DNA of 64,000 bases from Armatimonadota bacterium (GTDB taxonomy: Bacteria; Armatimonadota; HRBIN16): positions 248,001-312,000 of the forward strand of contig BPGU01000003.1 in the NCBI GenBank assembly GCA_026003195.1. The letters are read 5' to 3'. The position numbers and the translations under genes were made by a program. This document shows, piece after piece, positions 45,564 through 47,134 of the stretch; within the stretch, counting starts at the first letter, position 1, and every line of letters begins with the position of its first letter. Under the pieces are notes generated by a model, which was not told the DNA's origin, did no database searches, and saw nothing but the letters and a program-made list of their open reading frames with translations.

Positions 45564-45944
45564 CTTGAGCACACTCCTCCGCTGAAGCCAGTGTACGGTG
45601 CAACACCAGGCATATTCTTCCTCGTGGAGCGCAGGACTCCTGCCGAGCCTTCTTCTCCCCGCTTGCGAGGATGCAGGGTGGGGCTGTGTGTTTCGGCTCA
45701 CCCCAAGGTTCGCCCTCCAGAGGTGCAAAGCGAAAGTTCACGTTTGACAAACCGCTAAGGCTGCTCCTTTTCAGATTTCTTAAGTGTTATCCCGGCGATG
45801 GAAAATCGCGGGCAACAGGGGCACGAAACCTGCTCACGCAGGTTATCCACCTCCGAAGGGGGTTTTGTCCCTGTTGCCTGCGACTTCCAGTCGCCGGGTG
45901 GTCTATGAGAACATTGAGCCTTGACAGAGTACTCTCCGAACACA
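45564..45944. other. Intergenic region without a gene, holding a long inverted repeat
   Basis: No coding sequence is recognised. The main content is the imperfect inverted repeat at 45791-45898, listed separately. TTGACA at 45921 has no matching -10. The rest shows nothing I can name. Confidence 0.5.
45791..45898. repeat. Long imperfect inverted repeat (~40-bp arms), REP/MITE-like or RNA hairpin
   Basis: The left arm (45791-45830) and the reverse complement of the right arm (45861-45898) share CCCGGCGA, TGGAA, TCGC, GGCAACAGGG and AAACC in order, with few differences. Each arm also contains a smaller palindrome (GCGACTTCCAGTCGC in the right arm). This nested layout is like palindromic extragenic elements. 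No second copy was noticed in the window. Confidence 0.6.
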
Positions 45945-45973
45945 TTGACAATCTTGCGACGTACCTCTATAAT
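45945..45973 (+). promoter_or_regulatory. Perfect consensus sigma-70 promoter of the ECF-like sigma gene
   Basis: TTGACA (45945-45950), 17 bases, TATAAT (45968-45973), both hexamers perfect. It implies strong constitutive transcription unless repressed. Confidence 0.9.
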
Positions 45974-46015: not shown

Positions 46016-47134
46016 ATGGGATTACTGACCATGCCTGACGGAGATGGCTGGCATACTATCTTGTGCAACTACTTCGTGCACCACGCGCTCCAGCGGGAGC
46101 AAGCCGAAGAGTGCGTGACGCAGGTGTTCCTGCGCTACAGCACCAGGTCAGATGCGCCCCCGTGGGGCAAGCACGCGCCTCCACCCCTGTTGTGGACACT
46201 GGCGCGCGATGTGCTGTGTGAGCACTTCCGCCAGCAGGCGCGAGAGAAACAACGGCTGCAGAACCTGCGGTGCGTGCTGAAGTGTGATGCAGAGACCTGC
46301 GTAGAGACGCTGGCGGTAGACGAACTGGATGCCGAACGTTTTGCAAACAACCTGCCTGAGCGTGTGCGTGAGGTGCTGCAGTTACGCTTGCAGGGATACA
46401 CCTGTGCCCAGATAGCGCAACAGATGTCGCTGTCGCCGGGCACGGTGAAGGGGTATCTGGCGGAGTTGCGGAAAAAATTTGTGAAATACTACGGTTATGA
46501 CCCAACCAAACCGCCCTGTGGCGACGGTAATATATATGGAAGTCTTTGGGGAGTGAAGGCTTCCGCATCACACCGAGAGGACGAGGCACAAAATGCGCTT
46601 GAGGAAGTTTCTGGTCTGGACGGCGGTAAGTCTGTTCGTGGCAAGCGTGTTCGCTCTGCCCCACACTCTCGCCGCGCTGGGCGTGCACGCGGGGGGGGGA
46701 CGGCTCCGGCGAGTCTGCTGCTGAATAGCGGCTGTGGGTGTGGAGGGGAACAACCTGCTTTGTTCCCAGAACTAGCGGATAACGTTAGCGAACACCGCTT
46801 GTCCCTACTCACAACACAGCTAGTACGTTCCGCTGCAGACAGTCTCCAGCCTTTGGCAGCTACCTGCATTGACGTGGACGAGGAATGCGTAAGTCAAGCG
46901 CCCCTTACACAGTATCGCTGCGTCAATGAGTGGTGGATGCCCACCTGCTTTGGTCAGTTCGAGAAGTATAAACGCTGGAAGTACCGATGGCTGTGTAGCA
47001 GCTGTTACGTGGTTCGCTGTTGTCCGTGGGCGCGCGATGGCTGTTGTACAGACCTTGAAGATCCCCCTTGCCAGGGCAACGACCCACCTTGTGCAAAGCC
47101 TACCTGCTATGAACCGGCGGTAAACTGCGGATAA
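46016..47134 (+). CDS. ECF-like sigma factor ORF running on into a Cys-rich protein frame
   Basis: As read, 372 residues. Residues 1-162 form a small sigma-70-like factor: an N-terminal region-2-like helical part (C-N-Y-F-V-H-H-A-L-Q-R-E-Q-A-E-E, then W-T-L-A-R-D-V-L-C-E-H-F), then the region-4 helix-turn-helix L-P-E-R-V-R-E-V-L-Q-L-R-L-Q-G-Y-T-C-A-Q-I-A-Q-Q-M-S. After residue ~165 the sequence is not sigma-like: it passes through the signal-peptide region of the Cys-rich gene in the wrong frame and, after nine G at 46691-46699, enters the frame of the Cys-rich protein. If the tract were ten G, this ORF would end at a TAG at about 46727. GGGAG is only two bases from the first ATG; ATG 46031 is an alternative. 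Sigma identity is fair. Confidence 0.7.
   Translation: MGLLTMPDGDGWHTILCNYFVHHALQREQAEECVTQVFLRYSTRSDAPPWGKHAPPPLLWTLARDVLCEHFRQQAREKQRLQNLRCVLKCDAETCVETLAVDELDAERFANNLPERVREVLQLRLQGYTCAQIAQQMSLSPGTVKGYLAELRKKFVKYYGYDPTKPPCGDGNIYGSLWGVKASASHREDEAQNALEEVSGLDGGKSVRGKRVRSAPHSRRAGRARGGGTAPASLLLNSGCGCGGEQPALFPELADNVSEHRLSLLTTQLVRSAADSLQPLAATCIDVDEECVSQAPLTQYRCVNEWWMPTCFGQFEKYKRWKYRWLCSSCYVVRCCPWARDGCCTDLEDPPCQGNDPPCAKPTCYEPAVNCG
46593..47134 (+). pseudogene. Exported Cys-rich protein, frame broken at a nine-G tract (possibly phase-variable)
   Basis: A separate gene begins at ATG 46593 with GAGG six bases upstream: M-R-L-R-K-F-L-V-W-T-A-V-S-L-F-V-A-S-V-F-A is a clear signal peptide. In this frame translation stops soon after the G tract (T-G-C T-G-C T-G-A). 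One extra G at 46691-46699 would join it to the downstream frame, giving about 180 residues with 16 Cys, including G-C-G-C-G-G, L-C-S-S-C, R-C-C, G-C-C and a Pro/Cys-rich C-terminus. No zinc or peptide family is recognised. The mature protein would be outside the cytoplasm, probably disulphide-bonded. Either a slipped homopolymer (phase OFF), programmed slippage, or a read error. Confidence 0.65.
46691..46699 (+). repeat. Homopolymer run of nine G inside the Cys-rich gene
   Basis: Nine consecutive G where the signal-peptide frame and the Cys-rich frame meet; ten would join them. Runs like this are prone to slippage in vivo and to miscalls. Confidence 0.9.

Follow-up and report, generated by a model that had tools for sequence, protein, structure and literature searches.

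Poly-G switches acting in reading frames and in promoters are established in Neisseria (PMC5953494), with promoter tracts recognized as a class (PMC5953494). The porA gene of Neisseria is a poly-G switch of the promoter-spacer type, and most known cases of phase variation by poly-G slippage come from host-adapted bacteria. Homopolymeric tracts of prokaryotes are biased toward the 5' end of genes, as inactivation switches (PMC2831843). Finally, CorE and CorE2 are described as ECF sigma factors whose C-terminus bears a Cys-rich domain (PMC8999054).

The locus studied here lies in a 64,000-nucleotide stretch of DNA (the window; G000:C3:248001-312000) of a 4.58-Mb Armatimonadota genome in 29 contigs (G000). 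Its closest named relatives are HRbin16, Chthonomonadia bacterium Ch118 and Fimbriimonadales KatS3mg016; the genome is hence of the HRBIN16 type of Armatimonadota, which is known from hot springs. Like the poly-G genes of the Neisseria phasome (PMC5953494) and of Campylobacter (PMC6321876), it has an uninterrupted G-run in 5' coding sequence, with predicted ON/OFF states that depend on the frame, and the likeness extends to the presence of many loci per genome, to predicted surface or secreted products, and to promoter tracts. It differs from them in that the tract lies in the overlap of two genes and allows three product combinations, one of which is a fusion of a sigma factor to an exported protein, in that the organism is a hot-spring Armatimonadota, and in that switching within a population has not yet been seen. 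The likeness to porA-type spacer switches applies to sister loci of G000, whose tracts vary the -35/-10 spacing (14-18 nt) ahead of exported genes, and not to the window locus itself. In its fusion state the locus resembles CorE/CorE2, as an ECF-like sigma factor with a Cys-rich C-terminal extension and Cys residues in the linker before region 4; however, this linker (RCVLKCDAETC) is without the CXC of the CorE definition (PMC8999054), and the Cys-rich part, equipped with a separate start and signal peptide, becomes attached at one tract class only, such that the CorE-like (former ECF44) C-terminal domain is found on the sigma factor solely in the fusion class. The tracts described below are gathered at gene 5' ends like those of the prokaryotic survey, in which, however, the bias was for poly(A)/poly(T) while poly(C)/poly(G) were mostly under-represented (PMC2831843). 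In the full-text literature searched, no paper was found that joins 'phase variation' to Armatimonadetes or Armatimonadota, nor any description of an overlapping layout in which one tract gives a sigma fusion, an exported protein, or neither.

Layout of two genes across a nine-G tract

All features are on the forward strand, in window coordinates. A sigma-70-type promoter (TTGACA-17-TATAAT, 12/12 match to the consensus) occurs at 45945-45973, 5' of an ECF-like sigma ORF that extends to the tract (46016-46690, start at 46016 or 46031) and is supported by domain matches and orthologs. In the Pfam search of this ORF both Sigma70_r4_2 (39 bits, cut-off 25.7) and Sigma70_ECF (28.2 bits, cut-off 21.1) exceeded their cut-offs, which supports the assignment as an ECF sigma factor; sigma region 2 gave no separate match. 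A Shine-Dalgarno-like element, GAGAGGACGAGG, is found at 46575-46586 (homologs have a purine-rich AGGAGG-like motif 5' of the start), ahead of an ATG at 46593 that opens a second frame, +1 relative to the sigma frame and translating as MRLRKFLVWTAVSLFVASVFALPHTLAALGVHA. This start and signal peptide (46593-46690), recognized from the translation and from homologous signal peptides at 14 other loci, share the final ~100 nt of the sigma part of the ORF. The proposed switch, a tract of exactly nine G (46691-46699; 7-15 in homologs), is followed by a Cys-rich mature body with 16 Cys and a stop (46700-47134), which was delimited by alignment with in-frame homologs and had no match in a Pfam search.

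In the assembled state there is no stop between the sigma region and the Cys-rich body (ORF 46016-47134, 372 aa): at nine G the sigma frame continues through 147 codons of the body, the signal-peptide frame terminates 10 codons beyond the tract start, and the body is readable solely as a sigma extension. With ten G the signal peptide comes in frame with the body, and translation gives a putative exported protein of 180 aa. The preliminary description had claimed as much, namely that a sigma ORF is joined in frame to a 16-Cys protein across nine G, that this protein owns a ribosome site and signal peptide in another frame, and that ten G would restore an exported protein of ~180 residues; all three points held upon inspection of the sequence, its translation and the exact run count. 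As for the surroundings, a tRNA was the sole match in an Rfam search of the window. A 34-nt sequence ahead of the sigma promoter (45900-45933) has about nine further copies elsewhere in the genome, and belongs to a hairpin-rich element (about 45780-45935) without an Rfam match.

The overlap of the two genes is by itself weak evidence, because an open -1 frame is not rare by chance: across such signal peptides the probability is 0.42-0.80 each, and 0.026 for seven divergent examples if these are independent. For the same reason we rejected the overlap as proof of dual coding. The evidence for a switch rests instead on a tract that persists in homologous loci while its length changes.

Tract lengths and frame states of homologous loci

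A search of 291 genomes of the phylum, with the exported family as query, found this family in the genus of the window and in a genus of another family (g101); a weak match in G131 was left out of further consideration. Fifteen loci were retained, fourteen of which, from two Armatimonadota families, have an uninterrupted tract with n = 7-15. Among these fourteen the signal peptide and body are in frame (ON) in five: G005 copies A1 (n = 10) and A2 (n = 7), G002 (n = 7, with no sigma gene in front), G191a (n = 15) and G198 (n = 12); G197 is also ON, with an interrupted run (n = 5). Three are in the fusion state, G000 (n = 9), G006 (n = 10) and G194 (n = 11, where the contig ends shortly beyond), and a fourth, G186a (n = 9), belongs to the fusion tract class without an intact sigma factor, its sigma frame being short. 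Neither product would be formed in four (G001, n = 10; G191b, n = 10; G193, n = 9; G186b, n = 8), and in G186c (n = 11) no body is recognizable. It can be seen that all three frame states are represented with body frames still open. The close copies within the genus are G005 A1, G005 A2, G001 and G002. Wherever a sigma gene is present, it is read in the -1 frame relative to the signal peptide, without a stop before the tract. The locus is not a single-genome oddity, and the two outcomes that would have refuted the preliminary description failed to occur: tract lengths among the orthologs are 7, 8, 9, 10, 11, 12 and 15 G instead of a uniform ten, and the alignment with in-frame homologs shows that relatives keep the Cys-rich frame. 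Both copies in G005 (L068 and L069, on G005:C3) have sigma genes without the N-terminal part, region 2 being gone, and one of them adjoins a transposase-like ORF.

These lengths bear on the possibility that several products are made from a fixed sequence, by programmed frameshifting or transcriptional slippage. In its favor, OFF-state copies keep both reading frames open on either side of the tract, and frame restoration by polymerase slippage in homopolymers has been reported for Buchnera (PMC2831843). A fixed program, however, predicts a conserved length mod 3, whereas all three classes occur relative to the body, which argues against programmed frameshifting, one of the candidates in the preliminary description: the conserved slippery sequence that such a site requires would keep a constant length mod 3, which is not the case here. 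We consider this explanation unlikely, while transcriptional slippage could possibly still contribute low-level expression in every state.

Tract length diverges far more than the flanking sequence between related genomes. The 430 and 402 nt upstream of the tract in the window align to the two G005 copies with 94.5-94.7% identity and zero indels, while the tract itself changes from 9 to 10 and 7 (+1 and -2). A second locus of the same genome (locus B, G000:C3:762877) pairs a paralogous sigma gene with a different exported protein of 540 aa; it is in the fusion state in G000 (n = 8, 745-aa ORF), ON in G005 (n = 9) and in the neither state in G009 (n = 7), and the flank shared by the copies with n = 8 and 9 is 99.5% identical over 598 nt without indels. 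Since each species is represented by one genome, the length changes observed are between species or paralogs; switching within one population is inferred. A search of small contigs for strain variants of the tract loci found only an overlap between contigs C9 and C1, with equal tract length.

The nine G of the window might also be a consensus error, in which case the real tract would have ten G and the exported gene would simply be ON. Ten G are present in G005 copy A1, and contig C9 of G000 shares 13.8 kb with the beginning of C1 (L159-L161), with two one-base indels in C-runs between the two copies of this one region; because of such residual indels the window tract is possibly miscalled. 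Against this view, in the same assembly nine-G tracts are in frame in two long open frames (L035, L036) and in three distinct paralogs (L029, L050, L057), and the changes that would turn G000 loci ON go in both directions (+1 in the window locus, or locus A, and in B, L030 and L040; -1 in L042, L052, L033 and L045). OFF states are also found in the short-read and HiFi assemblies of relatives, whose length variation rests on SPAdes-named contigs and one KatS3mg MAG, which we take to be from the PacBio HiFi study of the Katase hot spring (PMC9671151). Base-call error, another candidate of the preliminary description, thus remains possible for the window assembly and fails to explain the length variation across SPAdes and HiFi assemblies; we lean slightly against it, and it would alter the state of G000 alone while leaving the switch in place.

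Selection on the body and its probable exchange

The body is under purifying selection: dN/dS is 0.25-0.43 where dS is measurable, with OFF-state copies among the comparisons, and the Cys pattern is conserved in the alignment of homologs. The G191 paralogs give 0.78 at high divergence, a value of little information. These data bear on the view that the locus is decaying, with the frame break as a dead end and the genes being lost. Consistent with decay, G003 is without the exported gene, the sigma gene of G002 is truncated, and the G005 copies have lost the sigma N-terminus. Against it stand the conserved body and Cys pattern with dN/dS well below 1, the presence of ON copies in both families, and the absence of accumulating stops in the OFF-state bodies of the homologous loci examined; we regard decay as very unlikely.

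The exported part has likely been replaced by recombination between species, with the tract, or a point close to it, as one boundary; this is our reading of near-identical flanks around a divergent body, whose synonymous divergence is far above that of the sigma part. In locus B the identity between G000 and G005 is 99-100% ahead of the tract, falls to 55-67% over the ~700 nt that start at it, and returns to 97-100% thereafter; synonymous divergence is 0.38 in the body and 0.01 in the sigma part. In locus A blastn matches end ~50 nt beyond the tract and restart after the body, with synonymous divergence saturated or 1.97 in the body and 0.11 in the sigma part. The replaced block of ~700 nt in the exported gene of locus B corresponds to L066:5384-6080 (versus L070), and one of its boundaries is at the poly-G tract. 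A profile search of solved structures with the Cys-rich body returned the KP6 toxin subunit alone (E 0.18), which we treated as chance, and structure prediction from three sequences reached a pLDDT of only 31.

Poly-G tracts of the genome and a putative three-state switch

We also considered the whole set of G≥9 tracts of G000 (24 listed, 23 distinct after removal of the contig overlap). Tracts were scored mechanically for a Shine-Dalgarno sequence and start codon, a signal-peptide-like N-terminus, and an ORF of at least 90 aa across the tract, with a length change of ±1 permitted; control G5-7 runs came from the window and 400 kb of sampled sequence, not from the whole genome. N-termini of signal-peptide ORFs were found at 12/23 tracts versus 44/696 control runs (p = 1.1e-8). 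With paralog families collapsed, 7/16 tracts pass (p = 4.5e-5), or 6/16 (p = 4.1e-4) when one doubtful case, its tract located at the start codon, is left out. The p-values are descriptive, because the test was devised after examples had been seen and was loosened once (C-runs, wider Shine-Dalgarno). Such tracts occur in RHS-repeat, dockerin and TPR families, among others, and in an amidase of G002. Only the placement of the G-runs is unusual: long runs are no commoner than in some other Armatimonadota, and their number alone was rejected as a phasome mark since other members of the phylum have more or none. In one RHS-type case (L059, G000:C3:903867-903884) an 18-G run follows the signal peptide, and the frame is short here and ~1000 aa in G005.

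A promoter-spacer family, TTGACA-C-G(n)-ACAGAG-TAGAAT, has 20 matches in six genomes of the window's genus, versus 0 for the reversed spacer pattern in the same six. In this main family the n+7 spacing is 14-18, and n is 10 versus 11 in the orthologs L062 and L104. Poly-G spacers precede exported genes at G000:C1:920376, C4:252657, C4:297892 and C4:508581, and also in G005, G001, G002 and G009. The window locus is likely one of a large number of poly-G switches in this lineage, whose targets are exported N-termini and promoter spacing, although the switching itself is inferred.

We conclude that the window locus is likely a three-state poly-G contingency (phase-variation) locus. An uninterrupted, slippable tract lies in a reading frame, and its length is more variable than its flanks, as expected of such loci; these points are shown, as are the frames, the homologs, the enrichment and the selection on the body. 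That a length change toggles an intact gene is inferred from sequence alone, all three states being defined by reading frame without expression data. Slipped-strand mispairing in replication would alter the G count. With n = 1 mod 3 (as counted at the window locus) the signal peptide would be joined to the body, which would be exported, and the sigma factor would stop about a dozen codons beyond the tract start; at n = 0 mod 3, as assembled, the sigma factor would carry the body at its C-terminus, without export; at n = 2 mod 3 both the fusion and the exported protein would be absent. What remains inferred is that replication slippage is the cause, that populations switch reversibly, that the body is exported, that the sigma factor is active, and that the fusion has any activity. 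The candidate of phase variation is supported, and so is the claim of the preliminary description that tract length switches both products jointly, with two additions: it had missed the third state and the genome-wide set to which the locus belongs.

A bolder and only possible reading would make the tract a genuine three-way switch, which sets the C-terminus of the sigma factor too. If so, an intracellular Cys-rich domain would in one phase give the sigma factor a new regulatory property, such as CorE-like sensing or self-inhibition, the domain would leave the cell in another phase, and a single slippage event would trade a form of the regulator for a surface or secreted product. The benefit of the set may be that exported proteins vary in the face of attacking phages or competitors, which is a guess from the protein families involved; such a set of switches in uncultured hot-spring bacteria would suggest a host-free form of bet-hedging, in which exported proteins are varied against phages or competitors.
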